A stretch of 64,000 bases of DNA from a virus. The DNA lies in the IMG/VR virus record IMGVR_UViG_3300034061_005520, positions 88,677 to 152,676 of that record, one strand, 5' to 3'. The notes under the pieces were generated by a model. It saw nothing but the letters and a program-made list of their open reading frames with translations, had not been told where the DNA came from and did not search any database. How positions within the stretch are numbered: the stretch's first letter is position 1; each line of letters starts with the position of its first letter. Positions 4,709-19,862 of the stretch are shown in pieces. The position numbers and the translations under genes are program-made.

Positions 4709-4971
4709 TGGCTATTAAACTGGCCAATTTAGTATAGGGGTGCCTACTATTTTTGGACCTCCGGCGACTTTAGGCCGCCCAAATTGTGTACCTTATCTAA
4801 ATTGAAAAAACCTCCCTTGCCCTAAAGCCTTATGAGGCAAGAGTTTAGGGCGAGTATGGCCCGCAAAATTTGTCCTAAGTACTTATGTAGCAAGGATTTA
4901 CGTTAAATAAATATCTTTCAAGTATACGTTGGGATATGTCGATATTGTATATATAAGAAAGAGAGGCTATA
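4709..4971. other. Intergenic stretch holding the first stem-loop element
   Basis: No credible gene. Contains GCCCTAAA/TTTAGGGC and CTTGCC/GGCAAG inverted repeats, then the stem-loop described next, and an A/T-rich promoter-like stretch (GATATTGTATATATAAG) before the ATG at 4972. Confidence 0.5.
4819..4886. repeat. Promoter-associated stem-loop element, copy 1 (divergent)
   Basis: TTTAGGGCGAG...CCTAAGTACTTA resembles the later copies, with an extra inverted repeat upstream (GCCCTAAA/TTTAGGGC) that can pair alternatively. Confidence 0.55.
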
Positions 4972-5148
4972 ATGTACGATATGATTTTGGCTATCACGTT
5001 CATGGGATTTGGGGTTGGATACGAGGGATATAGTGATGGGAAATATTATCTTGGGACGTATACTCCTACTAAGGAATATGGGTGGGTTGTAGAGAATGGG
5101 GAAATTCATTTAGATTCTATTCTAGAAAAAACAAATGTTCAGTATTGA
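4972..5148 (+). CDS. Hypothetical protein, 58 aa
   Basis: MYDMILAITFMGFG start, preceded by AAGAAAGAGAGG. A short hydrophobic N-terminus, then a Tyr/Gly-rich segment. Its stop codon lies inside the -35 box of the next promoter. No family recognised. Confidence 0.55.
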   Translation: MYDMILAITFMGFGVGYEGYSDGKYYLGTYTPTKEYGWVVENGEIHLDSILEKTNVQY

Positions 5149-5173
5149 CCACAAATAGCCGATACTGTATAAT
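5145..5173 (+). promoter_or_regulatory. Sigma70-type promoter with internal GCCGATA
   Basis: TTGACC, 17-base spacer containing GCCGATA, TATAAT. Drives the gene at 5205. Confidence 0.85.
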
Positions 5174-5204
5174 AGATACAACACAAGAGAAGAAGGAAAG
5201 AACA

Positions 5205-5357
5205 ATGGAAAACGATCTGCTGTATATGGCTCGCTCGCTGGGTTTCGAAGGAGAATCGCGGGAGGATCTGAATAGACTGTGCGATGAGCATAAGGTATCG
5301 GACGATATGCGAGAGAAGATGGTTAAGGAATACGAAGAAGGATATTTTGATTGGTGA
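5205..5357 (+). CDS. Small charged protein, 50 aa
   Basis: Start follows AGAAGGAAAG. Mostly helical, Glu/Asp/Arg-rich (MARSLGFEGESREDLNRL), ending in EEGYFDW. Unknown function; own promoter suggests an early gene. Confidence 0.65.
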   Translation: MENDLLYMARSLGFEGESREDLNRLCDEHKVSDDMREKMVKEYEEGYFDW

Positions 5358-5371
5358 ATATCGGTACAGTA

Positions 5372-5399
5372 TTGATTCCTAAAGATTTTGTGGTATAAT
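5372..5399 (+). promoter_or_regulatory. Sigma70-type promoter, CCGATA just downstream of -10
   Basis: TTGATT, 16-base spacer, TATAAT, then ACCGATATAAG. Here the shared motif lies in the initially transcribed region rather than in the spacer. Confidence 0.8.
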
Positions 5400-5428
5400 A
5401 CCGATATAAGAAGTAAAGGAGAAAAGAG

Positions 5429-5515
5429 ATGAGTTGCCCTGACCCACTGTATGATTATGCTGATTGGCTCGAAGAAGACGAAAGGGAATACGATGAACCC
5501 GAATCAGACGAGTAG
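5429..5515 (+). CDS. Tiny acidic protein, 28 aa
   Basis: Start follows AAAGGAGAAAAG, a good ribosome site. MSCPDPLYDYADW resembles the N-terminus of the acidic protein at 8967 (MSHPDPCYD), so the two are probably paralogues. Very acidic. Function unknown. Confidence 0.6.
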   Translation: MSCPDPLYDYADWLEEDEREYDEPESDE

Positions 5516-5570
5516 CGAATTGGCTATGATTGTTGCTATTCTTAAGGATATGAATAGTAAACGTAAGTAG
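5493..5570 (+). CDS. Tiny protein, 25 aa
   Basis: Starts inside the previous gene in another frame and ends in NSKRK. No domain. Weak support: right position before the stem-loop and no stop, but very short. Confidence 0.35.
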   Translation: MNPNQTSSELAMIVAILKDMNSKRK

Positions 5571-5578
5571 TTGCTACG

Positions 5579-5626
5579 TAAGCACTTAGGGCGAGCCGGC
5601 CCCGCAAAATTTGACGTAAGTGCTTA
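5579..5626. repeat. Stem-loop element, copy 2
   Basis: Perfect 10-base arms TAAGCACTTA/TAAGTGCTTA enclosing GGGCGAGCCGGCCCCGC and AAAATTTG. The clearest copy; followed by an A/T tract and a promoter. Confidence 0.9.
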
Positions 5627-5671
5627 TCCCGTAACGAGTTATATCTAATCTAAAAAAACATTTGTATAGTA

Positions 5672-5699
5672 TTGACTTTTAAAGAATCTTTGGTATAAT
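5672..5699 (+). promoter_or_regulatory. Sigma70-type promoter
   Basis: TTGACT, 16-base spacer, TATAAT followed by GTCGATATAAG, very like the promoter at 5372. Confidence 0.8.
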
Positions 5700-5736
5700 G
5701 TCGATATAAGAAGTAAGAAAGAAAGAGAGAAAGAAG

Positions 5737-5883
5737 ATGATGAATAAGACTATGAAGAATGCAAGTAAGAGAATTAAGAATCTTCAGATTCGTGAAAAGG
5801 CATATGCTATGCCGATTGTGAATAAAGATATGATGATGAATGATGAAAGCGTAAAGAAGTTTTTTGAGAGTATGAAAAACTAA
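5737..5883 (+). CDS. Small basic Met-rich protein, 48 aa
   Basis: Start ATGATG follows GAGAGAAAGAAG. Lys/Met/Asn-rich helix; no recognised family. Stop lies just before the next -35. Confidence 0.55.
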   Translation: MMNKTMKNASKRIKNLQIREKAYAMPIVNKDMMMNDESVKKFFESMKN

Positions 5884-5886
5884 CGC

Positions 5887-5916
5887 TTGACAACAAACTA
5901 TCCGATAAGGTATAAT
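5887..5916 (+). promoter_or_regulatory. Promoter giving a probable leaderless mRNA
   Basis: TTGACA, 18-base spacer with TCCGATA, TATAAT, then exactly 6 bases before the ATG at 5923, so the expected +1 is the A of the start codon. Confidence 0.8.
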
Positions 5917-5922
5917 GTGATC

Positions 5923-6072
5923 ATGGGAAACAAGAAACATATCTGGTGGACAACCGCTAATCGGATTGGTGATCGCTTTGTGCTGTATGTGAATGGGGAA
6001 ATTATGGGTAATTACCTCACTCTTGACGAATGTTGGAATCTTTATCAGGCTATCTCAAAGGAAACAAAATGA
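5923..6072 (+). CDS. Hypothetical protein, 49 aa, probably leaderless
   Basis: MGNKKHIWWTTANRIGDRF; small alpha/beta-looking protein with two Trp. No ribosome site; start falls at the predicted transcription start. Overlaps the next gene by 4 bases. Confidence 0.65.
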   Translation: MGNKKHIWWTTANRIGDRFVLYVNGEIMGNYLTLDECWNLYQAISKETK

Positions 6073-6266
6073 GCGTTTATTCTTTTGCTTGGTTGGTTGA
6101 GGCTATGCGTACTCGTCGTGAAATCATTCTGGTAAGCCATGATTGCAAGCCTGTAAAGGGTTTGGTGAATGGTATTCGGCCGGAAGATGGTAGCGGAAAG
6201 AATTGGCTTGTGACCATTTGTTCAGTAGGCCAACCATCTAAGGAAGTGTTTGTTCAGGCGTCGTAA
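6069..6266 (+). CDS. Hypothetical protein, 65 aa
   Basis: ATGA overlap with the gene before; MSVYSFAWLVEAMRTRREIILVSHD then GLVNGIRPEDGSGKNWLVTI, which reads as a small beta-barrel-like fold (an RNA- or DNA-binding OB/SH3 shape is possible). No family recognised. Confidence 0.65.
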   Translation: MSVYSFAWLVEAMRTRREIILVSHDCKPVKGLVNGIRPEDGSGKNWLVTICSVGQPSKEVFVQAS

Positions 6267-6280
6267 GGCGTTGTGAACAA

Positions 6281-6325
6281 AGGACTTACGGCGAGCCGGC
6301 GCCGCGAAATTCGCCCTAAGTATAT
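6281..6325. repeat. Stem-loop element, copy 3
   Basis: AGGACTTACGGCGA pairs with TCGCCCTAAGTAT around a GCCGGCGCCGC core; A/T tract and promoter follow. Confidence 0.85.
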
Positions 6326-6383
6326 GCTACATATAGACTTACAACGCAAAATAAAAAATCTGAAAAAATTCATGTGGCTAGGC

Positions 6384-6412
6384 TTGACAAGCCGATATTA
6401 GTAGTGTAGAAT
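6384..6412 (+). promoter_or_regulatory. Promoter with GCCGATA spacer
   Basis: TTGACA, 17-base spacer AAGCCGATATTAGTAG-type, TAGAAT. An ATG at 6419 lies 6 bases after the -10, as in leaderless genes here. Confidence 0.85.
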
Positions 6413-6442
6413 CGTGGTATGAGAAAGAAAGAGGAAAAGAAG

Positions 6443-6634
6443 ATGACTTTGGAAGTTTATCAGAATGGTTCGGCTGTTGGTTTCGTTCGTGCTAAGAATA
6501 CGCTCGAAGCGTATAAGATTGTGAGAGAGTTCTTTCCGGATTGCTCTAATGTTCGCACTGGACATTTGCCGATCTCTGATGTAAGATGCGTAAAGGTGAA
6601 CGATAACGTCTATACTTGGAACCTTACCAAATGA
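6443..6634 (+). CDS. Hypothetical protein, 63 aa
   Basis: Start taken at 6443 (GAGGAAAAGAAG before it); an alternative leaderless start is the ATG at 6419, adding MRKKEEKK. MTLEVYQNGSAVGFVRAKNTLEAYKIVREFFPD has a beta-beta-alpha pattern. Overlaps the next gene (ATGA). Confidence 0.65.
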   Translation: MTLEVYQNGSAVGFVRAKNTLEAYKIVREFFPDCSNVRTGHLPISDVRCVKVNDNVYTWNLTK

Positions 6635-6837
6635 GTCCTGAACTAATCGCTATGGCTTGCCTGTTTGTGGTGGGTATTATTATCATGGGATTGGTTTGTG
6701 CTGTGCTTGCTATTGGGGATACCCTGTGTAAAAGAATGGCCGAAAAAGAATTGAATGATGCGGGGTTTGGGACTGATGGATTTATCAGTACAGATGAGGA
6801 TGGTGTTCGGTGGCTCGTAGGATATAAAAAGGATTAA
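6631..6837 (+). CDS. Single-pass membrane protein, 68 aa
   Basis: Hydrophobic helix at residues 5-30 (LIAMACLFVVGIIIMGLVCAVLAIG), then a soluble tail ending in GVRWLVGYKKD. Likely anchored in the cytoplasmic membrane. Function unknown. Confidence 0.65.
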   Translation: MSPELIAMACLFVVGIIIMGLVCAVLAIGDTLCKRMAEKELNDAGFGTDGFISTDEDGVRWLVGYKKD

Positions 6838-6852
6838 AGAAAGGAACACGGG

Positions 6853-6963
6853 ATGTTCGATAATATAGATATAGATTGGACGTGGATGCTTGTGGGATTT
6901 GTTGTTGGTATTGGTAGTGCTTGGTTTGTTTCTGATTTGGTTTTTCCTATAAGGAAGAAATAA
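6853..6963 (+). CDS. Small membrane protein, 36 aa
   Basis: One hydrophobic segment (WMLVGFVVGIGSAWFV) followed by FPIRKK. Start follows AAGGAACACGGG. Its stop overlaps the next start (TAATG). Confidence 0.55.
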   Translation: MFDNIDIDWTWMLVGFVVGIGSAWFVSDLVFPIRKK

Positions 6964-7040
6964 TGAATCTTTACGATAAGGTAGTGCTTTCTGTATCCTT
7001 TGCTTTCGGTTGTGTGGTTGCTTGGGTGATTAACTCTTAA
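6963..7040 (+). CDS. Tiny membrane protein, 25 aa
   Basis: MNLYDKVVLSVSFAFGCVVAW; one possible membrane helix, TAATG overlap with the gene before. Confidence 0.4.
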   Translation: MNLYDKVVLSVSFAFGCVVAWVINS

Positions 7041-7060
7041 CCTAAGTGGTTGACACATAA

Positions 7061-7102
7061 GGACTTAGGGCGAGCCGGCGCCGCCCCGCTTGCCGTAAGT
7101 TG
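7061..7102. repeat. Stem-loop element, copy 4
   Basis: ACTTAGGGCGAGC pairs with GCTTGCCGTAAGT (one mismatch and a wobble) around CGGCGCCGCCCC. A partial second copy of the left arm (AAGGACTTAGGG) is at 7197-7208. Confidence 0.85.
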
Positions 7103-7236
7103 TTTGATACCAACGCTTTACGAGCAATTTCTCACGATACCATGTGTCCACTGTAGCACCTAAAGAAAACGGTTAGACGCAACAGCCGGCCAGATAAGGA
7201 CTTAGGGAAAATCGGATAATTTTCTAAACATTGCGT

Positions 7237-7265
7237 TTGACTTTTGACGATCTCTTAGGTATAAT
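7237..7265 (+). promoter_or_regulatory. Sigma70-type promoter
   Basis: TTGACT, 17-base spacer with GACGATC, TATAAT. Confidence 0.85.
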
Positions 7266-7291
7266 TCAGCATAAGAAAGAGAGAGTGAAAG

Positions 7292-7480
7292 ATGGAAAAG
7301 TTGACTGTGAGTGAAGAAATCGTTGTGGCTGCTCTGCTGAAAACCAGTGAGCAGAATATGGCTTCTCTGGTGGAAAGCGGAGTAAGTGAGAATCTGACCA
7401 AGATGCTCATTGAGGATCTGCAAACCATTCGCGTGATTCGTCGCAAGTTGGGTTTGGATGCCTACAATTATTCAAAGTAG
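7292..7480 (+). CDS. Hypothetical helical protein, 62 aa
   Basis: Start follows AAAGAGAGAGTG. All-helical, amphipathic (MEKLTVSEEIVVAALLKT; LIEDLQTIRVIRRKLG). Possible small regulator; no family recognised. Confidence 0.65.
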   Translation: MEKLTVSEEIVVAALLKTSEQNMASLVESGVSENLTKMLIEDLQTIRVIRRKLGLDAYNYSK

Positions 7481-7483
7481 GGT

Positions 7484-7513
7484 TTGACACTCACCAAAGA
7501 GTTTTGCTAGAAT
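7484..7513 (+). promoter_or_regulatory. Sigma70-type promoter lacking the CCGATA motif
   Basis: TTGACA, 18-base spacer, TAGAAT, immediately after the previous stop codon; no intervening stem-loop. Confidence 0.75.
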
Positions 7514-7536
7514 CAAACCAACACGAAAGGGAAAAC

Positions 7537-7878
7537 ATGAAACAGAAATTTGAGATTATCGAAAACGCTAAGAAACAGGCTCGTATGTGCTTTCTTGGGA
7601 TTGCGATTCCCCACCAACCCTCTCTGGCGGATGGTGAGTATGGGCCGATCAAGAGTGAGAAGGTTTTGAAGTTCAACCGCAAGGCACTTCGCAACCTTGG
7701 CAAAGTGAAGAAAGAGAAGTCCGATCCGCGATTTGTGGGTGGTGAGGATACCATGATCGTAAAGGCTGGAAAGCCGGGTTCGCAGGAACGCATTGAGGCT
7801 CTTGCCCACCAGTATGCTGCGATTCTCGCGTGTGGCGAGGAAGTTTCGCCCTTCGCGTTCAAAGGGGACGATGAATAA
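7537..7878 (+). CDS. Hypothetical protein, 113 aa
   Basis: Start follows GAAAGGGAAAAC. Basic N-terminal half (KFNRKALRNLGKVKKEKSDPRF) then a helical Ala-rich segment. Opposite-strand open frames across it are shadows. Function unknown. Confidence 0.65.
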   Translation: MKQKFEIIENAKKQARMCFLGIAIPHQPSLADGEYGPIKSEKVLKFNRKALRNLGKVKKEKSDPRFVGGEDTMIVKAGKPGSQERIEALAHQYAAILACGEEVSPFAFKGDDE

Positions 7879-7923
7879 TCGTTCACCACTGAACAAAAAA
7901 CTGAACCTAAACCCTTGCTACTA

Positions 7924-7970
7924 AAAGACTTAGAGCGAGGCCGGCGGCGAAAATTTGCTCTAAGTGCTTA
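7924..7970. repeat. Stem-loop element, copy 5
   Basis: Perfect ACTTAGAGC/GCTCTAAGT arms around GAGGCCGGCGGC; note the compensating change (A-GAGC with GCTC-T) relative to other copies, which supports a conserved paired structure. Confidence 0.9.
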
Positions 7971-8017
7971 TGTGATAACGACTTAGGAACAGAATAAAAA
8001 TCTTCTAAAGATTATGC

Positions 8018-8046
8018 TTGACTCTTGCCGATCTATACTATATAAT
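8018..8046 (+). promoter_or_regulatory. Promoter with GCCGATC spacer
   Basis: TTGACT, 17-base spacer containing GCCGATC, TATAAT. Confidence 0.9.
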
Positions 8047-8062
8047 CGAGTGTAGGAGAAAG

Positions 8063-8212
8063 ATGATGAAAACGAAGAAGAAGCCAGTAAGTGGATTTCA
8101 GAAAACGGAACTCAGGATGAAGCAAGAGACTGGTCGTGCTTTGGCTCAAGTAAAGTTTCTGGAAAAACTGTATCGTGAAACGTTGGAAAGCAAGCAAAAG
8201 GAAAACAAGTAA
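8063..8212 (+). CDS. Small basic helical protein, 49 aa
   Basis: Start ATGATG follows AGGAGAAAG. Lys-rich, probably one long helix or coiled coil (ALAQVKFLEKLYRETLESK). Stop overlaps the next start. Confidence 0.65.
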   Translation: MMKTKKKPVSGFQKTELRMKQETGRALAQVKFLEKLYRETLESKQKENK

Positions 8213-8523
8213 TGAATCATTCCGAAGCGGTTAAGATGGTTCGTGGCAAGCGTAACGCTAACCGTCGCAAGGTTGGTAATAATACTTACGCTGAGATTCT
8301 GCATGATGGTAGCGTGGGTATTATGCTGCACAGTACCTATGTGGTCAAGATTCACGAAGATGGTACTTATACACTCAATAGTGGTGGCTGGCAAACTCTG
8401 ACCACTAAGGATCGTATCAACCAGTATAGCCCACGTTATGTTTATCAAAAGAATTTTGAATGGTTTGTGAAAATTAACGACAAATCCTATCCTTTTATGG
8501 ATGGTATGGTTGTGGGAAATTGA
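8212..8523 (+). CDS. Conserved phage protein of the GGWxTLTTKxRIN type, 103 aa
   Basis: Residues 25-75 alternate beta strands: NNTYAEIL, GIMLHSTYVVKI, GTYTLNSGGWQTLTTKDRIN. I recognise the SGGW-x-TxTTKxRIN signature as one shared by many phage proteins of unknown function. Co-transcribed with the gene upstream (one-base overlap). Confidence 0.75.
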   Translation: MNHSEAVKMVRGKRNANRRKVGNNTYAEILHDGSVGIMLHSTYVVKIHEDGTYTLNSGGWQTLTTKDRINQYSPRYVYQKNFEWFVKINDKSYPFMDGMVVGN

Positions 8524-8542
8524 CGTAAAGCCTTGTCCCTAA

Positions 8543-8588
8543 AGAACTTAGGGCGAGGCCGCGCCGCCCGCCGCGTCGTAAGTCCTTA
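8543..8588. repeat. Stem-loop element, copy 6
   Basis: AAGAACTTAGGGCG...CGTCGTAAGTCCTT around GCCGCGCCGCCCG; followed by GCAACACTTTAC and an A/T tract. Confidence 0.8.
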
Positions 8589-8641
8589 TGCTGCAACACT
8601 TTACATCGACAATTTTTTTTAGATTTTTTATAGATACCCTA

Positions 8642-8669
8642 TTGACTTGGCCGATATACTCTGTATAAT
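8642..8669 (+). promoter_or_regulatory. Promoter with GCCGATA spacer
   Basis: TTGACT, 16-base spacer with GCCGATA, TATAAT. Confidence 0.9.
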
Positions 8670-8706
8670 GGTAGTATCACAAGTGAAACCCCAAAGGAAG
8701 TCAAAA

Positions 8707-8904
8707 ATGTATTCTTTCGAAGAAATCAACTCGATTCTGGATCAAATGGCCCAAGAGGGTACGATTGAGCCTATGGTCGAGCCGATTGACGATCCTAGCG
8801 TGGAAGTCAACTTTTGGGATTGGGCAGATGTTGTGGGTTGTGTGGATGATTTTGCTCCTGTCGAGATGATGGATGAAAACGGCGAAACGTGGATTGTGGA
8901 ATAG
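8707..8904 (+). CDS. Acidic hypothetical protein, 65 aa
   Basis: Start follows AAGGAAGTC. Strongly acidic with a central NFWDWADVVG segment. Could be a protein-binding inhibitor or DNA mimic, but that is only composition-based. Confidence 0.65.
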   Translation: MYSFEEINSILDQMAQEGTIEPMVEPIDDPSVEVNFWDWADVVGCVDDFAPVEMMDENGETWIVE

Positions 8905-8907
8905 GGC

Positions 8908-8936
8908 TTGACAGCCTAAAGTTTTTAGGATAGAAT
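8908..8936 (+). promoter_or_regulatory. Sigma70-type promoter
   Basis: TTGACA, 17-base spacer, TAGAAT followed by CCCGATAAC; starts right after the previous stop. Confidence 0.8.
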
Positions 8937-8966
8937 CCCGATAACACTAGTAAAGAGGAAAAAGAA

Positions 8967-9209
8967 ATGAGCCATCCTGACCCGTGCTATGATCCTGACA
9001 ACTCTTACGAGGACGATATGAACTACGACGATTACAATGATTTCAATTACGGTGAAGTTGACGCTGATGAACTGGAGAACAGTTGGGATGATTCGTATGA
9101 TGATAGTATGGATGGGGATCATGAGAGTGGCCTATCTTCCGCTGGATGGGGAACCGATGAGGATTACGGATATTATGGTGATGATACCGAAATGAATGAA
9201 GATTACTAA
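8967..9209 (+). CDS. Highly acidic protein, 80 aa
   Basis: Start follows AAGAGGAAAAAG. Almost every third residue is Asp or Glu with many Tyr and Asn; begins MSHPDPCYD like the 28-residue protein at 5429. Such composition is seen in DNA-mimic and anti-nuclease proteins, but no specific family is recognisable. Confidence 0.7.
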   Translation: MSHPDPCYDPDNSYEDDMNYDDYNDFNYGEVDADELENSWDDSYDDSMDGDHESGLSSAGWGTDEDYGYYGDDTEMNEDY

Positions 9210-9231
9210 TTTACCTTTAAGGAAAAAAGAA

Positions 9232-9459
9232 ATGAAGTGCGTTGTAACCCATACTGATACTTTTGCTGGTGAGGCTAACTACGGCTGGGTCAAGCGTTGG
9301 GAGTTTGTACCCAAGTATGATTCTCAGCGTAGCATTATTCGCAAGGCCAAGGCTTTGGCTGGCTTTACGGGTGTGAAATCTGAAACCGAAGATTATGGCG
9401 ATAGTTTCAAGATTAAGCCTCGCGGCTACAATCAAGTAATTTTCGTAGACTTCGAATAA
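9232..9459 (+). CDS. Hypothetical protein, 75 aa
   Basis: Start follows AAGGAAAAAAG. Beta/alpha pattern (MKCVVTHTDTFAGEANYGWVKRW; RSIIRKAKALAG); ends in VIFVDFE. Co-transcribed with the acidic protein before it. Confidence 0.65.
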   Translation: MKCVVTHTDTFAGEANYGWVKRWEFVPKYDSQRSIIRKAKALAGFTGVKSETEDYGDSFKIKPRGYNQVIFVDFE

Positions 9460-9483
9460 AACTCTCCGCAAACCCTTTGTGCA

Positions 9484-9532
9484 TAAGCACTTAGGGCGAG
9501 CGGGGGCCGCCGGCCTCGTCGTAACTCCTTAC
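9484..9532. repeat. Stem-loop element, copy 7 (imperfect arms)
   Basis: TAAGCACTTAGGGCGAG with CTCGTCGTAACTCCTTA; two arm mismatches. Followed by GCAACACTTTACGTC and an A/T tract. Confidence 0.75.
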
Positions 9533-9576
9533 ACAGCAACACTTTACGTCTAAAAAAATTTTTTAAAGATTTCCTC

Positions 9577-10385: not shown

Positions 10386-10458
10386 CCCTAAGTTGTTGCT
10401 ACGGCAGCACTTAGGGCCGAGGGGCGCCGCCCGGCTCGTCGTAACTCTTTATGCTGCA
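10386..10458. repeat. Stem-loop element, copy 8
   Basis: GCACTTAGGGCCGAG...CTCGTCGTAACTCTTT with GGGCGCCGCCCGG core, then GCAACACTTTACATC. Confidence 0.75.
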
Positions 10459-10496
10459 ACACTTTACATCAAAAAATATTTTTTCAAGAAACCCTA

Positions 10497-11829: not shown

Positions 11830-11944
11830 TGATATTTGTCAGTGTGGCGAGAACAACGATATGGCCTATAGGCTAGATGATCGTGGTGTGTGGTGGTATT
11901 GGTGTGGAACTTGTGGCTGGTGGCACCTAAGTGATTGGAAATAA
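11816..11944 (+). CDS. Mini zinc-ribbon protein, 42 aa
   Basis: CQCG and CGTCGWWH give a CxC...CxxC ribbon around WWYW; 14-base overlap with the gene before. Probably binds zinc. Confidence 0.6.
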   Translation: MKILSDICQCGENNDMAYRLDDRGVWWYWCGTCGWWHLSDWK

Positions 11945-11992
11945 AGGACTTACGAACAGGGCGGCGGGGCCGATTCGTTCTAAGTTGTTATT
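11942..11992. repeat. Stem-loop element, copy 9
   Basis: ACTTACGAAC/GTTCTAAGT arms around GGGCGGCGGGGCC: different inner stem sequence yet still paired. Followed by CAACACTTTACGAC. Confidence 0.85.
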
Positions 11993-12034
11993 TCTCAACA
12001 CTTTACGACTAAAAAATTTTTTCAAGTTTCTCTC

Positions 12035-13105: not shown

Positions 13106-13120
13106 CCTAAACCCCTACGC

Positions 13121-13171
13121 CGTAAGCACTTACGGTAAACGGGGCCGGCCCGGCTCGACGTAACTCGTTAT
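13121..13171. repeat. Stem-loop element, copy 10
   Basis: TAAGCACTTACGG...CGACGTAACTCGTTA with GGGGCCGGCCCGG core; then CCAATGACTTAGAAC in place of the usual CAACACTTTACG. Confidence 0.75.
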
Positions 13172-13228
13172 GTACCAATGACTTAGAACAAATTTTTGGA
13201 AATCTCAAAAAATGATTCACGAATGGGG

Positions 13229-13774: not shown

Positions 13775-13855
13775 ATGAAAAACGAAGCAGAAACTACTGA
13801 ACAGTTTTTGAGTATGTGTGAACTGCTCCTAAACTCTTTGAGGATAAAGACTTAG
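13775..13855 (+). CDS. Possible tiny protein, 26 aa
   Basis: ATG directly after tRNA-Arg, like the gene that follows tRNA-Ile at 37830; MKNEAETTEQFLSMCELLL. Ends inside the stem-loop arm. Weak support. Confidence 0.3.
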   Translation: MKNEAETTEQFLSMCELLLNSLRIKT

Positions 13856-13892
13856 GGCGAACCGGCGCGGCCCGGCTTGACGTAACTCCTTT
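13845..13892. repeat. Stem-loop element, copy 11
   Basis: AAAGACTTAGGGCGA...TTGACGTAACTCCTTT with CCGGCGCGGCCCGG core; then CAACACCTTGCGTC. Confidence 0.75.
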
Positions 13893-13937
13893 AGCATCAA
13901 CACCTTGCGTCAAAAATAATTTCTTCAAGAAAATGCC

Positions 13938-15298: not shown

Positions 15299-15533
15299 AT
15301 ATTATGTCAAATGTGGTACGCTAGAACTAATCTACTCAACAAGTAAAAATCCTCTTGAGGCAGCAGTAACTACTCTTGGTGAAAGCAATAAGTTCGATGT
15401 TCTAGATGAATACTTCTATATAGATGAGCGTGGTTTTAGAGACTATGCGACAGCAGATAAAGAAACTCAGGTAATCAAATTGAATAAGGTGTGTAGAAAA
15501 GCGGGCTGGGAAATTAATAGAGAAGACGAGTAA
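15291..15533 (+). CDS. Hypothetical protein, 80 aa
   Basis: ATG overlaps the end of the kinase-like gene by 8 bases. MSKYYVKCGTLELIYSTSKNPLEAA, then IDERGFRD; resembles small phage proteins with an N-terminal beta-hairpin. Function unknown. Confidence 0.65.
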   Translation: MSKYYVKCGTLELIYSTSKNPLEAAVTTLGESNKFDVLDEYFYIDERGFRDYATADKETQVIKLNKVCRKAGWEINREDE

Positions 15534-15556
15534 AACTAACCGCAAACCCTTTGGGC

Positions 15557-15606
15557 GTAAGCACTTAGGGCTAGCGGGGCGCCTCCGATTCTTCGTAACT
15601 CCTTAT
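15557..15606. repeat. Stem-loop element, copy 12
   Basis: TAAGCACTTAGGG...TTCGTAACTCCTTA with GCGGGGCGCCTCCG core; then CAACCACTTAG. Confidence 0.7.
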
Positions 15607-15639
15607 ACTTCAACCACTTAGAAAAAATTAAAGAATGGG

Positions 15640-15668
15640 TGGACGGATACCGATAAGTATGATATGCT
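15640..15668 (+). promoter_or_regulatory. Weak promoter with ACCGATAA spacer
   Basis: TGGACG, 17-base spacer with ACCGATAAG, TATGCT. Confidence 0.6.
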
Positions 15669-15690
15669 AATCAGACGCAGAGGAGAAAGA

Positions 15691-16059
15691 ATGATCCAGT
15701 GGATAGGGGTGATAATTGCCCTGTTAGGTTTGGCCTATAATGGTGTAAAAGACTATCAAAAGGGTGATATAAAAATACCCAAACTACCAAAAAAAGAAGT
15801 ATTGACAAAGGTGGTTTATCCGGTACAATACTGCTTAATGGCTTACGACCCTAATGTTGACAAGGTTTTTTACTTACACGAAAATGGACAATGGCATGAT
15901 TACGCTCCACAACAACGACGATACCCGACCACGCCGCAAGTACGGCAAGATCAAAGTCAAGGCCAAGCAGCCTTGGGAGGCTCCTACGGGACACAAGGAG
16001 TATCGGGATACTACTATGGACAGCAGGCCCAAGCGACAGCGAACACGACGAGACATTGA
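15691..16059 (+). CDS. Membrane-anchored Gln/Gly-rich protein, 122 aa
   Basis: Start at 15691 follows AGAGGAGAAAG. Residues 2-18 are a hydrophobic helix (IQWIGVIIALLGLAYNG); a conserved-looking middle (YCLMAYDPNVDKVFYLHENGQW) and a low-complexity tail rich in Gln, Gly, Tyr and Ser. The tail is overprinted by another open frame. Confidence 0.6.
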   Translation: MIQWIGVIIALLGLAYNGVKDYQKGDIKIPKLPKKEVLTKVVYPVQYCLMAYDPNVDKVFYLHENGQWHDYAPQQRRYPTTPQVRQDQSQGQAALGGSYGTQGVSGYYYGQQAQATANTTRH

Positions 16060-16090
16060 CAGGGGTTGGCAGCAAGAGTATGATATGTAG
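15884..16090 (+). CDS. Overlapping basic protein in another frame, 68 aa
   Basis: Frame +1 relative to the gene above. MDNGMITLHNNDDTRPRRKY then KPW-like and RPKRQRTRRDIDRGW segments look like a genuine basic nucleic-acid-binding peptide, whereas the overlapping tail of the other frame is low complexity. Start uncertain (15884 or the Met four codons later). Contains the -35 box of the tRNA promoter. Confidence 0.4.
   Translation: MDNGMITLHNNDDTRPRRKYGKIKVKAKQPWEAPTGHKEYRDTTMDSRPKRQRTRRDIDRGWQQEYDM
16056..16084 (+). promoter_or_regulatory. Promoter of the tRNA cluster
   Basis: TTGACA, 17-base spacer, TATGAT, 10 bases before tRNA-Thr. Confidence 0.75.
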
Positions 16091-16094
16091 GATT

Positions 16095-16167
16095 GCCGAT
16101 GTAGCTTCAATGGCAGAGCAACGGTTTTGTAAACCGTGGGTTGTAGGTTCGACTCCTATCATCGGCT
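16095..16167 (+). tRNA. tRNA-Thr(TGT)
   Basis: GCCGATG/CATCGGC acceptor, ACGGT/ACCGT anticodon stem, loop TTTGTAA, T-loop TTCGACT. No encoded CCA. Confidence 0.92.
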
Positions 16168-16168
16168 C

Positions 16169-16239
16169 TCCGGGGTAGTGTAACGGTAGCACCAGAGATT
16201 TTGGTTCTCTTTGTCTGGGTTCGAATCCTAGCCCCGGAA
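16169..16239 (+). tRNA. tRNA-Gln(TTG)
   Basis: TCCGGGG/CCCCGGA acceptor, AGAGA/TCTCT anticodon stem, loop TTTTGGT with anticodon TTG. Confidence 0.92.
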
Positions 16240-16257
16240 TTAATAAAGGAGATAATT

Positions 16258-16680
16258 ATGCTTGGAAGTAATGCGATATACTTGGCAAGAGAAATCGGCA
16301 GTTGGGGTCTCACCAAGATGGACGAGGCTCAAAGAATAGATACTATCAAAAAGAATGAAGTTACTATTCGTTCTTTTAATAATTCTATTAGCGATATGGG
16401 GATAATGATGTATGAGTTTATGACTAATAACAGTAGATCTAACCTGTATGGTTATAAAATGAAATTTGCTGCTATAGAGAACATATCGGCCGAATTGCTT
16501 TCTTGTTTGACCTATAATAGTAATGTAGCATTTGGTTCTTGCGAAAAAGACTATAATAGAATAGCAGATGACTTGACAGTTATGGCAAAGATTTTGGATT
16601 TTGAGATAGAGAATAATATGACAAGCACTGATATTCGTAGTAAGACTTATAAGATTATGCCAAGGGAAGTGGCGGTATAA
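16258..16680 (+). CDS. Hypothetical helical protein inside tRNA cluster, 140 aa
   Basis: Start follows AAAGGAGATAATT. Helical throughout (MLGSNAIYLAREIGSWGL; CEKDYNRIADDLTVMAKIL). Sits between tRNA-Gln and tRNA-Asn on the same transcript. No family recognised. Confidence 0.7.
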   Translation: MLGSNAIYLAREIGSWGLTKMDEAQRIDTIKKNEVTIRSFNNSISDMGIMMYEFMTNNSRSNLYGYKMKFAAIENISAELLSCLTYNSNVAFGSCEKDYNRIADDLTVMAKILDFEIENNMTSTDIRSKTYKIMPREVAV

Positions 16681-16686
16681 TTTTTT

Positions 16687-16756
16687 GCCCGATAGCACAA
16701 TGGTAGTGCGGCAAACTGTTAATTTGTAGGTTCTAGGTTCGAGTCCTAGTCGGGCA
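16687..16756 (+). tRNA. tRNA-Asn(GTT)
   Basis: GCCCGAT/GTCGGGC acceptor, GCAAA/TTTGT anticodon stem, loop CTGTTAA. Confidence 0.92.
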
Positions 16757-16760
16757 GTTT

Positions 16761-16847
16761 GGAATCTTGGCCGAGTGGTTTAAGGCAGCGGTTTACTAAA
16801 CCGCCGAGGGTTAAAATCCTCCGGGGGTTCGAATCCCTCAGATTCCG
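16761..16847 (+). tRNA. tRNA-Ser, anticodon ACT
   Basis: Type II tRNA: GGAATCT/AGATTCC acceptor, long variable arm, G discriminator as in Ser tRNAs. Anticodon stem GCGGT/ACCGC encloses TTACTAA, giving ACT; the usual bacterial AGY-reading tRNA has GCT. A34 here is unusual. Confidence 0.8.
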
Positions 16848-16873
16848 TCGGAGGCTGACGCAGAGTTGCGGAC

Positions 16874-16944
16874 ATTGGCGTAGTTCAACGGTAGAATGAC
16901 GGTCTCCAAAACCGTAGATGAAGGTTCGATTCCTTCCGCCTTTG
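16874..16944 (+). tRNA. tRNA-Trp(CCA), imperfect acceptor stem
   Basis: Anticodon stem ACGGT/ACCGT with loop CTCCAAA, T-arm GAAGG/CCTTC. Acceptor ATTGGCG against CGCCTTT has two T-T mismatches at positions 2 and 3, so it may be degenerate. Confidence 0.75.
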
Positions 16945-16959
16945 CTTAAAGTTTTGCTC

Positions 16960-16988
16960 TTGACAGGCCGATAACAGTAGTGTAGACT
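16960..16988 (+). promoter_or_regulatory. Promoter with GCCGATAA spacer
   Basis: TTGACA, 17-base spacer with GCCGATAACAG, TAGACT. Confidence 0.9.
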
Positions 16989-17010
16989 ATTGGAAAGAAA
17001 GGAAACCAAT

Positions 17011-17199
17011 ATGAAAACTGTTCGCTTCTACGATATGGTTATTGATTGTTTTGAGAATGGCGTTGAGACAACTCGACAACTTGAGAATGAATTGCGTCTA
17101 CAACTGCCCCAAGATTTTGATCTGAACGATGCTTTTGATATGTTAAATCGGGAAACTGGGTGTGATGTGTGTTCTTTTAAGTATGAAAATATAGCCTAA
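17011..17199 (+). CDS. Hypothetical protein, 62 aa
   Basis: Start follows AAGGAAACCAAT. Helical, Glu/Asp-rich (ENGVETTRQLENELRLQL). Followed directly by tRNA-Lys. Unknown. Confidence 0.65.
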   Translation: MKTVRFYDMVIDCFENGVETTRQLENELRLQLPQDFDLNDAFDMLNRETGCDVCSFKYENIA

Positions 17200-17226
17200 A
17201 AAGATGGTTCAGTGGTTGGCCGATTT

Positions 17227-17299
17227 GGAGGCGTAACTTAGTGGCTAAAGTAGCGGTCTTTTAAACCGAAAACCGTGGGTTCGAGTCCCACCGCCTCCA
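17227..17299 (+). tRNA. tRNA-Lys(TTT)
   Basis: GGAGGCG/CGCCTCC acceptor, CGGT/ACCG anticodon stem, loop CTTTTAA, T-arm GTGGG/CCCAC. Confidence 0.9.
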
Positions 17300-17322
17300 C
17301 TAGTATGGTGTATAACTAGAGT

Positions 17323-17348
17323 AGCAGATTACTAGTAAACTACTCTAG
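17323..17348 (+). promoter_or_regulatory. Hairpin ahead of the PD-(D/E)XK gene
   Basis: AGAGTAG/CTACTCT arms around ACTAGT-type loop, ending next to the AGGAGATAATA ribosome site; could control translation or mark the boundary of an inserted gene. Confidence 0.55.
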
Positions 17349-17357
17349 GAGATAATA

Positions 17358-17771
17358 ATGCACAGTAAAAGAAAAGGTAATATAGGGCAGTTCGGTGTTG
17401 GTTTAGCATTAACTAAACTGGGGTACTCCGTATTCACAGAAGAAGGAGACATTTCTAAAATAGATATTATTGCCGAAAAAGATGGCAACCTAATAAAAAT
17501 ACAATCTAAGGCAATAACACCGGTGGATGGTTGTATTAAAATACCTCTAAAAAAGAGTGGCCCAAACTATCAGTTTTATTATGATGCTTCAATGTTTGAC
17601 TACTTTGCCGCATACGATCTAGAGGATGGTAAGGTGTACCTAGTATCCTCAGATATACTGACAGAAAACAATACCTTGTTTAACCTAAGAAAAGAATTTC
17701 CAAAAAATAATCAAAAAGATAAAATTAATCTTGCTTCTGATTACGAGATTGAAAAAATTCTTGGGTCTTGA
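17358..17771 (+). CDS. PD-(D/E)XK endonuclease, group I intron-associated/homing type, 137 aa
   Basis: KRKGNIGQFGVGLALTKLGYSVF, then SKIDIIAEKDGNLIKIQSKA gives the D...(D/E)xK core: D50-type acidic residue in KIDII and IQSK. This arrangement is that of small restriction-fold nucleases associated with group I introns. It lies between tRNA-Lys and a tRNA-like sequence, typical of homing at tRNA genes. Nuclease activity is inferred from motif. Confidence 0.7.
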   Translation: MHSKRKGNIGQFGVGLALTKLGYSVFTEEGDISKIDIIAEKDGNLIKIQSKAITPVDGCIKIPLKKSGPNYQFYYDASMFDYFAAYDLEDGKVYLVSSDILTENNTLFNLRKEFPKNNQKDKINLASDYEIEKILGS

Positions 17772-17796
17772 CAGTTTGACCGCTTTGGTGTAAGAT
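17768..17796 (+). promoter_or_regulatory. Sigma70-type promoter
   Basis: TTGACA overlapping the previous stop, 17-base spacer, TAAGAT. Confidence 0.75.
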
Positions 17797-17820
17797 AAGA
17801 ATCTAGAAAGGAGTAAGCCT

Positions 17821-18009
17821 ATGCGTTATTATGACGAAGAAACAGATTATCCGTTTGATTACGAAAATATGATGAGCGGTGGGTTTGATGATCTTCTGGA
17901 GGAAGAAGATTACACCGACGATGAACTGTATGAAGTTAACGACGAGAACGACGTTGACGAATGGGTTAACTCCTACAATAATGTAGAAGATGAAATTGTT
18001 GACGAGTAA
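17821..18009 (+). CDS. Very acidic protein, 62 aa
   Basis: Start follows AAAGGAGTAAGCCT. Asp/Glu/Tyr-rich throughout (MRYYDEETDYPFDYENMM; EEEDYTDDELYEVND). Composition-based DNA-mimic or inhibitor candidate; no family. Confidence 0.65.
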   Translation: MRYYDEETDYPFDYENMMSGGFDDLLEEEDYTDDELYEVNDENDVDEWVNSYNNVEDEIVDE

Positions 18010-18013
18010 TAAT

Positions 18014-18100
18014 GTGGATGCCTCTCGGTGGGACGAGACTCTTTTCTATAAATCCTTTCTTTCTTATCTCAAGTAGTACGTTCGAATCGTACCATCCACT
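18014..18100 (+). tRNA. tRNA-like sequence, type II, anticodon arm not formed
   Basis: Perfect GTGGATG/CATCCAC acceptor, TCTCG/CGAGA D-stem, perfect GTACG/CGTAC T-stem with TTCGAAT loop. The 37 bases between cannot form an anticodon stem; a CTATAAATC segment recalls the tRNA-Tyr loop CTGTAAATC. Either a degenerate tRNA, an interrupted one, or a tRNA mimic. Confidence 0.5.
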
Positions 18101-18103
18101 CTT

Positions 18104-18610
18104 ATGAATACGCTGAATCAGAACGTAGACGATTTCAGGGTAATGGCAGACGGTAAGGTTATCCAAGGTGCTAGCCACACCTGTATGGTATTGAATCATA
18201 AGATTCGTAATAAGGCTATCATTAAGGCAATTTGCGATCTGCGTAGAATTAGCAATCAGTTTGATAGTATCGTTTGCTGCGGAACTAGCGGACTAATGGT
18301 TGTTCCGCAAATAGCAGAATTGCTAGATAAGCATATTGTTGTAATTAGAAAGCCAGAAACAAAATCATATAGTGGTTTTGCTATAGAGGGCGTGATTCCT
18401 TTTAGGTACGTTATTGTTGATGATCTGGTTTGCTCTGGTTCTACTATAAAATTTATTAAGAATACTATCTACGAAGAATGCCCTAAATCTAGGTGTGTTG
18501 GCGTTTATTGTTATATGCCAGATGAGTGTGCGTACAACACCGAGAACGCTAAACTTTTTGAACGTGACTTTGGCACACTGTTCTTAAATCCAGGCCCGCC
18601 AAGAACTTAG
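18104..18610 (+). CDS. Phosphoribosyltransferase-like protein, 168 aa
   Basis: Residues about 100-115 (FRYVIVDDLVCSGSTIK) are the PRPP-binding signature (hydrophobic, DD, xxxxG/SxT) of type I phosphoribosyltransferases; an upstream VCCGTSGLMV segment is the pyrophosphate-loop position. Likely salvage of a base or nucleotide-related ligand; substrate unknown. Begins four bases after the tRNA-like sequence with no clear ribosome site. Confidence 0.75.
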   Translation: MNTLNQNVDDFRVMADGKVIQGASHTCMVLNHKIRNKAIIKAICDLRRISNQFDSIVCCGTSGLMVVPQIAELLDKHIVVIRKPETKSYSGFAIEGVIPFRYVIVDDLVCSGSTIKFIKNTIYEECPKSRCVGVYCYMPDECAYNTENAKLFERDFGTLFLNPGPPRT

Positions 18611-18648
18611 GGCGAGGCGGGGCGGCCCCGCGTGACGTAACTCCTTAC
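18601..18648. repeat. Stem-loop element, copy 13
   Basis: AAGAACTTAGGGCG...GACGTAACTCCTT with GGCGGGGCGGCCCCGC core; then CAACACCTTGCGAC. Overlaps the end of the PRTase gene. Confidence 0.75.
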
Positions 18649-18693
18649 GTATCAACACCTTGCGACGAGAAAATTTTTTCGCAAGATTTCCTA

Positions 18694-18721
18694 TTGACAA
18701 GCCGATAACATACTGTAGAAT
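18694..18721 (+). promoter_or_regulatory. Promoter with GCCGATAAC spacer
   Basis: TTGACA, 16-base spacer with GCCGATAACA, TAGAAT. Confidence 0.9.
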
Positions 18722-18764
18722 AGGTGGAGTTGAACGAAGTACGATAACACGAAAGGTTAATGAG

Positions 18765-19715
18765 ATGGCTCATGCAGTTGAACAGATGATGTTTGTTGGT
18801 GCTACTCCGTGGCATGGTCTTGGCAATCAGTTGGATGAGGCTCCCACGATTAGCGAGGCAATTACCGCCGCTGGTCTGGACTGGGAGGTTGGTCTTAAGG
18901 ATTTGTTTACGAGCGAAGGTACTCCGGTTCCGGCTCGTGCAACCTATCGCAAAACCGACAACTCTATCTTGGGTGTTGTTGGCCCGCGATATACTCCGCT
19001 GCAAAACAGCGATGCTTTCGATTGGTTTCAGCCGTTTCTTGATGCTAACGAGTGCCAACTTCATACTGCCGGATCGCTCCATAGCGGTCAAAAGGTGTGG
19101 GTTCTCGCTCAACTCAACCGCGACAATAGCGAGATCGTGAAGGGTGATGAGGTTTCCAAGTTTATCCTTCTGTCTAACAGCCATGATGGTACAACTGCAA
19201 TTCGCGTCGGCTACACCCCGATTCGTGTTGTGTGTGCTAACACGATGGCAATGGCCCATAGCAAGGGTAGCGGTTCGCAGTTGATTCGGATTCGACACAC
19301 TCGCTCCAGCCAGAAGAATCTGGAACAGGTTCGAGATATTATGGATAATATCAATGTCCAGTTCGAGGCTACTGCGGAACAGTTTCGGTTCCTCGCTAGC
19401 AAGAACTTTAATCAGGGTGATATTCGTCGATATGTTAAGTCGATGCTGGGCATCGAAGGTACGCCCGACGAAGATGTTAAGACTCGCACCAGAAATATCA
19501 TGGACGAGATTCTTGCTCTGGTCGAAGGGCCGAAGCAATCAGCAACGGGTGTTAGGGGTACTTGGTGGGCTGCTTATAACGGCTACAATGAATACCTTAA
19601 CTATAACAAGGGTCGCACGACCGATAACCGGCTCGATTCGCTCTGGTTCGGTCAGAACGCGAACGATAACAGCAAGGCGTTAACGACTGCTCTGGAGTTT
19701 GCGAACGCTATCTAA
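18765..19715 (+). CDS. DUF932 (phage/plasmid-like, TIGR03299-type) protein, 316 aa
   Basis: MFVGATPWHGLGNQL at residues 9-23 and the later DAFDWFQPF, HSGQKVWVLAQL, SHDGTTAIRVGYTPIRVVCANTM segments match the DUF932/LGT family found on phages and plasmids of many bacteria. Length fits the family. Start follows CGAAAGGTTAATGAG. Function not established; the family name records domain similarity only. Confidence 0.85.
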   Translation: MAHAVEQMMFVGATPWHGLGNQLDEAPTISEAITAAGLDWEVGLKDLFTSEGTPVPARATYRKTDNSILGVVGPRYTPLQNSDAFDWFQPFLDANECQLHTAGSLHSGQKVWVLAQLNRDNSEIVKGDEVSKFILLSNSHDGTTAIRVGYTPIRVVCANTMAMAHSKGSGSQLIRIRHTRSSQKNLEQVRDIMDNINVQFEATAEQFRFLASKNFNQGDIRRYVKSMLGIEGTPDEDVKTRTRNIMDEILALVEGPKQSATGVRGTWWAAYNGYNEYLNYNKGRTTDNRLDSLWFGQNANDNSKALTTALEFANAI

Positions 19716-19734
19716 CTTTTCGTGTCACGATGAA

Positions 19735-19783
19735 AAGGGGAAGGGCCGTGGCTGGGAAACCGGCTGCGGCCTTTTCTTTTAAT
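19735..19783 (+). terminator. Strong rho-independent terminator
   Basis: GGGCCGTGGCTGG, GAAA loop, CCGGCTGCGGCCT, then TTTTCTTTT. Confidence 0.9.
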
Positions 19784-19813
19784 TCATTGACCACTAGACG
19801 TAACTCTTTAATA

Positions 19814-19862
19814 CGTAAGGACTTAGGGCAAGCCGGGCCCCGAAAATTAGTCGTAAGTTTAA
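19814..19862. repeat. Stem-loop element, copy 14 (last)
   Basis: GTAAGGACTTAGGGC...GTCGTAAGTTTAA with AGCCGGGCCCCG core. No further copies are seen to the right of this point. Confidence 0.75.

Follow-up and report, generated by a model that had tools for sequence, protein, structure and literature searches.

Integron attC sites carry four boxes arranged as two inverted pairs and lie beside stop codons. Among phages, the PeSLs of T4-like phages combine an early promoter with a stem-loop and are repeated between small genes (PMC4503421), and the stoperators of cluster A mycobacteriophages are mostly not associated with promoters (PMC6550527). In E. coli, CRP class I sites act at centers near -60.5, -70.5, and -81.5 (PMC6301791). 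The elements described here share features with each of these systems, and no description of such an element was found among the literature matches listed, in a search that most subscription journals lay outside.

The window, that is, the whole stretch of 64,000 nucleotides analyzed, belongs to a 152,676-base IMG/VR record in which we found 14 elements of what we call type A, each 82 bp long, aligned without gaps at about 61% identity, and all on the plus strand. A sequence-only reading had described an intergenic family of 14 confined to one cluster, and two scans agree with it: a matrix built from the 14 copies retrieved the same 14 places in the window, and a two-arm scan of the whole record, slice by slice, gave 14 matches, with zero on the reversed record sequence. 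The core pattern had 19 matches on the two strands of the window, against 1.2 expected in shuffles. The copies from the matrix scan, with their promoter-like hexamers, and the gene that served as an anchor for finding relatives are as follows.

4821..4902, plus strand, type A copy 1 (boxes 1-4 and G/C core); weak promoter-like TTGGGA 4929 / TATAAG 4952
5562..5643, plus strand, copy 2; TTGACT 5672 / TATAAT 5694
6262..6343, plus strand, copy 3; TTGACA 6384 / TAGAAT 6407
7041..7122, plus strand, copy 4; nearest promoter-like TTGACT 7237 / TATAAT 7260, 114 bp away
7906..7987, plus strand, copy 5; TTGACT 8018 / TATAAT 8041
8524..8605, plus strand, copy 6; TTGACT 8642 / TATAAT 8664
9467..9548, plus strand, copy 7; TTGCAT 9577 / TATGAT 9599, 28 bp away, by eye
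10387..10468, plus strand, copy 8; TTGACA 10497 / TAGAAT 10519
11926..12007, plus strand, copy 9; TTGACT 12035 / TATATT 12057
13106..13187, plus strand, copy 10; TTGACA 13229 / TATACT 13251
13828..13909, plus strand, copy 11; TTGACA 13938 / TAGAAT 13961
15541..15622, plus strand, copy 12; weak TGGACG 15640 / TATGCT 15663
18583..18664, plus strand, copy 13, 5' of the DUF932 gene; TTGACA 18694 / TAGAAT 18716
18765..19715, plus strand, DUF932 gene (PF06067, E 2.3e-49)
19799..19880, plus strand, copy 14, 3' of the DUF932 gene; TGGACA 19914 / TACAAT 19937, in another helical phase

One additional box lies at about 7193-7206, between copy 4 and its nearest promoter-like pair.

Each type A element consists of four copies of one 12-bp box, placed with exact dyad symmetry around a nearly G/C-only core in which the order of G and C is nearly free. 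The CAACACTTTACG box, earlier set apart as an extra conserved feature, turns out to be the fourth copy of the common box and the mirror partner of an upstream box 1 that had not been listed. Internal spacing is tightly held, with a gap of 14 in 490 of 503 two-arm elements from the window and 80 related loci. One record, G018, has a gap of 13 in 13/13 elements, that is, 1 bp shorter, and its elements are as diverse (63% identity) as those of the window (61%); six other A records show the gap of 14 in 14/14, 15/15, 25/25, 15/15, 9/11, and 13/14 elements, and record G011 mixes two spacings. A records carry 11 to 25 copies.

An automatic scan placed promoter-like hexamers 17 to 41 bp 3' of 12 of the 14 copies; for copy 7 it gave a poorer match at 54 bp, and the better pair was picked by eye. 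Copy 4 has only the distant pair listed above, and the hexamers of copies 1 and 12 are weak. The broader description, a multicopy family preceding promoter-like sequences between small genes, was borne out, also in related phages, with a promoter-like pair (consensus match) at most 110 bp downstream of 370 of 390 distinct A elements. All promoters and start sites named here were predicted by consensus matching, which gave 65 promoters where shuffles led one to expect 32.

The distance from element to -35 hexamer is helically phased: for a period of 10.5 bp, R is 0.645 (n=64 after deduplication by sequence, as some loci come from the same contigs; 375 before), compared with a null value of 0.109 and 0/2000 jitters as high; the control distance, from stop codon to -35, gave R=0.135 (n=52). 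Elements following DUF932 are phased still more sharply (R=0.925, n=13; 63 before deduplication), about 4 bp off the phase of the others, and pooling all type A elements gives R=0.440 (n=76). Distances fall one turn apart within downstream gene families, at 18/19 and 28/29 for family 28 and at 11/12, 23, and 33 for families 1 and 24. With the start site assumed, the center of box 4 falls near -60.5, -70.5, and -81.5.

These observations lead us to propose, with confidence evenly divided, that early promoters are regulated from these elements, each being the upstream binding site of a rigid protein complex that is type-specific and faces RNA polymerase; activation appears more likely than repression. 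Protein dimers on the boxes at both sides of the core would form one rigid complex, which would fix the internal spacing to the base pair, and this complex and RNA polymerase would sit on one side of the helix, with the -35 a whole number of turns downstream. Together with the intervening A/T tract, which we take to be UP-like, the complex may recruit RNA polymerase as class I activators do.

The likeness to CRP class I sites lies in an upstream palindrome, a 10.5-bp periodicity to the promoter, and comparable centers, and the helical phasing reported above (type A against its control, and R=0.450 in type B) speaks to position, not activity. The elements differ from CRP class I sites in their 82-bp length, their build of four boxes in type A and two palindromes in type B, their G/C-rich core, and their copy number per A record, and activation is here a matter of inference. 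Several further observations count against an activator site: the phase offset of copy 14-type elements, the different helical phases of types A and B, a reverse asymmetry relative to the promoter in 42/411 elements, the mixed spacing in G011, the lack of a binding protein in our searches, repressive-looking half elements at +1, and promoters that stand without an element. The last of these include, by our own assignment, 10 of the 19 promoter-like pairs in the cluster with 11 or 12 of 12 consensus matches, so not every promoter requires the element, and an early promoter that matches the consensus may do without an activator. Such element-free pairs are also compatible with architectural or segregation sites (looping, partition, or nucleoid-like bridging) that lie at promoters by chance and owe their phasing to DNA bending by a bound complex, as are the clustering of numerous rigid palindromic sites and the G/C-only core of free order, which suggests a need for shape or stiffness; we consider this quite improbable, given the in-phase promoter-like pairs downstream of nearly all distinct A elements.

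The sequence-only reading had favored a conserved stem-loop supported by compensatory arm changes in copies 2, 5, and 9 and had called for a covariation check. No helix covaries among 176 divergent copies, in shuffles that account for kinship only through an 80% cut, and among the 14 window copies the boxes pair at chance and the core below chance (with copy 1 anchored 2 bases off in this test), so that the compensatory changes were not upheld. Allowing G-U pairs of either strand brought no helix above shuffles beyond z 1.1. Chimeras built from unrelated halves gave more stable folds than natural copies (6/6 permutations), and neither strand of the natural copies folds better than such chimeras. 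The core is anti-palindromic (z -3.8 in type A and -4.4 in type B), G stands opposite G at dyad pair 45/72 in 224/395 copies, and a plus-strand terminator-like pattern occurs in just 1/14 copies (copy 12). On these tests the hairpin and terminator readings were rejected, and the absence of covariation together with the poorer folding favors DNA-protein recognition.

The same results bear on the suggested kinship with PeSLs, in which a promoter and a stem-loop terminator would form a cassette mediating modular shuffling. T4 PeSLs and the present elements share a repeated early promoter (here by consensus) with a palindromic element between small genes, and a unit of families 5, 14, and 6 is placed elsewhere in loci L081 and L084; the elements here differ in having neither a selected stem-loop nor element-centered shuffling, and a hairpin would not need exact spacing. 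The commonest-neighbor share, over 64 distinct strings, was 0.69 across elements (21 families) versus 0.66 elsewhere (39 families), so neighbors are not more variable across elements, and cassette shuffling was rejected. Two of the tested PeSL features, a conserved stem-loop or terminator and gene shuffling, are thus lacking and the consensus promoter is present; we regard a PeSL-type cassette as very improbable. Extremely improbable, in our view, are site-specific recombination sites resembling integron attC, with two inverted pairs of binding sites around a short core. The four boxes in two inverted pairs and the frequent position right after stop codons recall attC; here, unlike in attC, promoters are attached and no folding signal is seen, and the commonest neighbors are kept across elements. 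PF00589 and PF00239 recombinases gave zero matches in 12 records of 138 to 229 kb, possibly incomplete (controls were positive in 14 and 10 of 14 genomes), and recombination sites give no reason for a helical phase with promoters.

The same element was found in related phages, across related loci. In 10 of the 80 related loci its equivalent places are occupied by element B, CTGCCAAAATGGCAG-N14-CTGCCAAAATGGCAG, which is unrelated to A and also has a G/C-rich core. No locus or virus among the 80 related loci carries both A and B, one of the type-exclusivity counts including several loci of the same contigs, and the genes between elements are largely intermixed between the types. Type B elements are phased as well (R=0.450 at 10 bp and 0.387 at 10.5 bp, n=78 of 355). 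IMG/VR records may be fragments, and gene calls came from a simple scorer made for this analysis. No close isolated phage was found: the best DUF932 match was 45.7%, to an uncultured 595-kb phage, the next was 34%, and window positions 1-25000 gave no match. Scanning genome contigs for element B gave one 5.2-kb MAG contig. A generic search for more element types, with poor thresholds that missed even known elements in L013, gave nothing, and a 10-mer count and inspection by eye showed no repeated element in L437/L438.

The complex would come in two or more versions of different specificity, A and B, with all full elements of a genome fitting the one in use. We speculate, more tentatively and with some doubt, that the types are exchangeable codes: all full elements of a genome would share a single kind of composite docking site, with one of two or more specificities that are unrelated to each other, and a rigid complex would read it, spanning the G/C-rich core and turned toward RNA polymerase in helical phase. 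Genes would flow between A and B with the code swapped only as a whole set, which would imply either a compatibility barrier or a match to the current factor of the host or phage.

Half elements provide a further clue, and two lie just beyond copy 14.

19947..19975, plus strand, half element of two boxes with 15-bp center spacing, just 3' of the copy 14 promoter
20332..20360, plus strand, half element ending in a box that overlaps the -35 of a promoter-like sequence (TATACT ~20378, hexamers by eye)

The position after the copy 14 promoter is common to type A and type B phages. By their placement, half elements seem to occupy operator-like places of other promoters, and those at +1 look repressive. 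They fit an explanation in which the elements are repressor or roadblock sites like stoperators, a type-specific repressor silencing the early region or halting elongating polymerase and A and B being immunity types. In line with this, 236 of 489 elements, about half, lie within 20 bases of a preceding stop codon or overlap it, the elements of five records are, among the matches listed, confined to one 14-20 kb stretch except for one weak match in G008, and exclusive types despite gene exchange resemble heteroimmunity. The stoperators of L5 and cluster A comprise many sites of one motif per phage, with a motif that differs among relatives and is consistent within each genome, as here; in contrast to the promoter-phased composite sites of this locus, those sites are asymmetric and served by a known repressor in temperate phages, and most are not associated with promoters (PMC6550527). 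Helical phasing to a downstream -35 is not expected of a roadblock, no integrase or resolvase family appeared in the 12 records, and no cognate repressor was found in 16 records, several of them fragments; we consider this explanation unlikely.

For the regulatory complex that we favor, inspection by eye of the same 16 records, with the proteins of six as queries, gave no DNA-binding-looking family that tracks type. A Pfam check covered four B-enriched proteins (families in at least 4/5 large B records and at most 1/7 A records) and two A-enriched proteins; the former are a SpoU methylase (PF00588), a 115-aa protein whose surroundings suggest a structural role, one of 133 aa whose start is signal-like, and one of 73 aa, and none of seven A-enriched rows was recognized as DNA-binding. 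The family at 12379-12732, a weak, below-cutoff relative of L5 gp82, alone separated A from B perfectly (nearest-neighbor test, 27 families, 10 records); it was dropped as a type-specific gene because four changes are needed for its 6 B rows among 49, in what are weak short-protein trees. One further protein is encoded beside the cluster.

752..982, plus strand, small protein, predicted to fold into three helices, with an AT-hook-like tail (model pLDDT 77.9)

It is present in 9/10 records of both types, with a third-helix region that looks alike in A and B by eye. Its AT_hook match is below cutoff, there is no fold match at E 0.001, and the best-ranking folds, those of small terminases and homeodomains, all have E above 0.8; it is a weak candidate for a binding protein.

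Our findings caution that palindromic promoter cassettes of large phages are not all stem-loops. If our reading is true, sequence alone would reveal the geometry of a protein-DNA complex down to the single base pair, and viruses whose genes otherwise recombine would, in nature and more than once, have replaced their entire regulatory code, which opens the testable question of how a many-site regulatory system switches specificity without mixed intermediates.

The source record is an IMG/VR virus of 152,676 bases, of which the window takes bases 88677-152676, and our scans found the 82-bp type A element there in 14 copies at 4821-19880, all on the plus strand. Scans of the reversed sequence gave no matches, and the 14 related elements that the sequence-only reading had placed at about 4.8-19.9 kb are confirmed. 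The copies align without gaps at a mean identity of 61%. With index 40 set at the first base of ACTTA in box 2, the element spans index 18-99, its dyad lies at 58.5, and four boxes can be distinguished.

Boxes of the type A element (index positions, plus strand)
18-29, box 1, CCTAAATCCTTG
35-48, box 2, AAAGGACTTAGGGC
71-82, box 3, CGTAAGTCCTTA
88-99, box 4, CAACGACTTACG

The boxes are a single motif in alternating orientation, spaced 15, 38, and 15 bp from centre to centre, around a core in which 96-99% of copies have G or C at index 55-61 and 85% at 62, with G and C interchangeable in order (n=378). One extra box (7193-7206), which separates copy 4 from its distant promoter, suggests an element remnant or insertion.

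Relatives were collected by a protein search of viral contigs with the DUF932 gene product, and the best 80 of 104 loci were used. The window and these loci hold 508 type A elements above 10 bits, 486 above 40 bits, and 395 distinct ones (control, 0). Type A is present in 70 of the best 80 of 104 loci, including L035 and L052, whose shorter spacing leaves none above 40 bits under the standard matrix. The other 10 of the best 80 lack type A and instead carry element B, upstream of DUF932 and elsewhere, which consists of CTGCCAAAATGGCAG, 14 bp with a G/C-rich centre (90-98% G/C at seven positions, 197 distinct cores), and CTGCCAAAATGGCAG again. In these 10 loci, the gap is 14 bp in 83 of 86 box pairs lying within 40 bp. 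A pattern scan of viral contigs located element B in 79 stretches, some on contigs already sampled, and the 78 newly found loci have no type A element above 25 bits. When five further loci are added to these, 677 box pairs are separated by 5-25 bp (both strands, so partly counted twice); the gap is 14 in 580 of them, and the remainder are scattered across 13 other gaps, in part overlaps and chance. No full type A element was found in nine B records scanned; ten A records gave 0 to 5 matches each to the 13-bp B core with at most one mismatch, none 29 bp apart among the matches listed, and one A locus, L087, carries a lone B-like palindrome without a partner. Single A box pairs (at most two mismatches) were found in 3 of 13 B records, one per record, that of G033 being identical in sequence to a half element of G021, and no mixed A/B locus was seen among the loci examined.

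Of 503 type A elements from the window and related loci, 490 have an inter-arm gap of 14 (two have 10, one has 12, nine have 13, and one has 15). The gap is 14 in 13 elements of record G017, which has one additional odd match, and 13 in all 13 elements of record G018, which are as diverse as those of other records. That every G018 copy is 1 bp shorter without homogenisation points to a putative trans-acting partner that would gauge the inter-arm distance, and record G011, with gap 14 in nine elements and 13 in two, shows that the single-spacing rule is not absolute.

A conserved hairpin with compensatory arm changes, as had been proposed, is not supported by our data. In 176 copies at below 80% identity, drawn from 378 distinct plus-strand copies, Watson-Crick pairing relative to shuffled columns gave z values of 0.0 for box 1:2, -8.0 for box 3:4, -3.9 for box 1:4, and -3.8 for the core. 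Only box 2:3 scored positively (z +3.0), and its score comes from one dinucleotide, 40-41 with 76-77. Of the 30 copies in which the outer pair of this dinucleotide is not A-T, 19 have C.C or G.G, so that the signal reflects a coupled choice of half-site version and not pairing. Natural copies fold at a mean of -22.3 kcal/mol versus -23.3 to -23.8 for left/right-half chimeras, which are more stable in six of six permutations on both strands. On the strength of the pairing scores, the chimera folding, and the G that faces G at index 45/72 in 224 of 395 distinct copies, the stem-loop label should be dropped. The arms of element B are direct repeats, with AAA facing AAA. A terminator-like pattern accompanies copy 12 (plus strand) and copy 6 (minus strand) and is absent from the other 12 window copies on either strand; the region holds 17 such patterns versus 12.3 expected.

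In the DUF932 tree, B loci fall in six places, some at weak forks, type needs 6 changes for 10 B rows (shuffled mean, 9.5), and L076 (B) and L072 (A) are sisters at support 100/97. Among 15 gene families with enough members, changes range from 2 for 6 B rows in family 23 (shuffled, 5.5) to 6 for 6 B rows in family 9 (shuffled, 5.8), so most families, although not all, are strongly intermixed between types. No gene tracking element type was found among the records compared, several B ones being partial. A SpoU-family methylase gene (PF00588; L089 2209-2742 and relatives) occurs in 4 of 5 large B, 1 of 4 small B, and 0 of 7 A records. The idea that the elements mark a gene-shuffling zone did not hold, as the commonest right-hand neighbour has a share of 0.69 across an element (21 families) versus 0.66 elsewhere (39 families). 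Only 13 of 359 gene pairs are found both with and without an intervening element. In L081 and L084 the unit of families 5, 14, and 6 has a different location; families 5 and 6 are similarly placed in the B loci L069 and L073. This is modest rearrangement rather than element-centred shuffling.

Several other features were noted. A repeated non-coding stretch, TAATCCTACGGATTTGG...GATAGTCAGCGAAT, possibly a structured RNA, lies at 12156-12205, 20041-20090, and about 21341-21390 (the third by eye), and recurs in relatives, L069 and L073 among them. Some 560 bases without a called gene behind copy 8 (10470-11027) contain TTTCGTGGGTCCATG..., present by eye in the same two relatives. Neither had an Rfam match in an E-value search of window 1-24000. 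Seven tRNAs lie at 13701-17300, a tmRNA gene (tag GTTQLALAA) with two more tRNAs at 37755-44311, and a long array of near-identical GTTGTGGTTGGC-type repeats (by eye) at 2280-2760 within minus-strand ORF 1903-3333. A 22-kb part of a 595-kb phage, L374 (LR756511.1), has AAAGCTGTAC 34 times at 3226-18906, on one strand only; many of the copies are directly 5' of an ATG (by eye), and the sequence may serve this phage as a promoter motif.

Among the 489 elements preceded by a plus-strand gene, 183 start 0-19 bases past its stop codon and 53 run into its called end, by 25 bases at most; a further 125 are 20-199 bases away and 128 are at 200 or more; 395 of 508 overlap no called gene and two do so by more than 40 bases. 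Downstream is an A/T-rich tract (78-83% A/T at 84-95 from the element start), followed by TTGACA/TATAAT-like hexamers in 377 of the 411 copies whose flanks are complete, or in 370 of 390 distinct elements by another count, in agreement with the promoter that had been predicted there. The converse fails: window 4700-20400 has 19 plus-strand promoter-like pairs that match at 11-12 of 12 positions, and nine of them (including that of copy 4) are behind an element and ten are not. Of 81 loci, 39 (30 of the 71 A and 9 of the 10 B loci) have a simple -10 pattern behind DUF932, and all 39 have a pair of A boxes (at least 11.5 bits) within the following 45 bases. Elsewhere, in A as well as B records, half elements extend over the -35 hexamer of a promoter-like sequence (hexamers by eye). 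Since half elements occur in both types, an A-box reader is probably common to A and B phages, and B phages would be distinguished solely by their full early-cluster elements.

The spacing between the element end and -35 falls mainly into four groups, 17-19, 26-32, 36-41, and 59-62, and a single downstream gene family can lie at distances one turn apart in different phages. Pooled type A promoters are significantly phased (R=0.440, n=76, 0 of 2000 as high). When split by DUF932 position, a division chosen after the pooled result was seen, all other positions gave R=0.645 at 10.5 bp (n=64 deduplicated promoters, 375 before; jitter null 0.109, 0 of 2000 jitters as high), and the post-DUF932 position gave R=0.925 (n=13, 63 before; distances 10-12, 23, and 31-33), about 4 bp off the main phase. 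As a control, the distance of the same -35 hexamers from the stop codon before them gave R=0.135 (n=52); for element B (n=78), R was 0.450 at 10 bp, or 0.387 at 10.5 bp. Taking the first base of the -35 hexamer as -35 puts the box 4 centre at about -60.5, -70.5, -81.5, and -102.5, and in the post-DUF932 class, with the start site likewise assumed, near -54.5, -65.5, and -75.5. The passages of PMC6301791 on class I action by CRP give maxima at -61.5, -71.5, and -82.5 and a complete loss of action at -66.5 and -76.5, peak positions that resemble our main-phase centres, with start site and box 4 contact assumed.

These observations lead us to regard the elements as regulatory DNA sites that lie upstream of, and in phase with, likely early promoters; a rigid complex of several protein dimers most likely binds them. 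The elements could possibly serve as sites of repression; activation is favoured as their putative role because of the helical phase and the accompanying A/T tracts.
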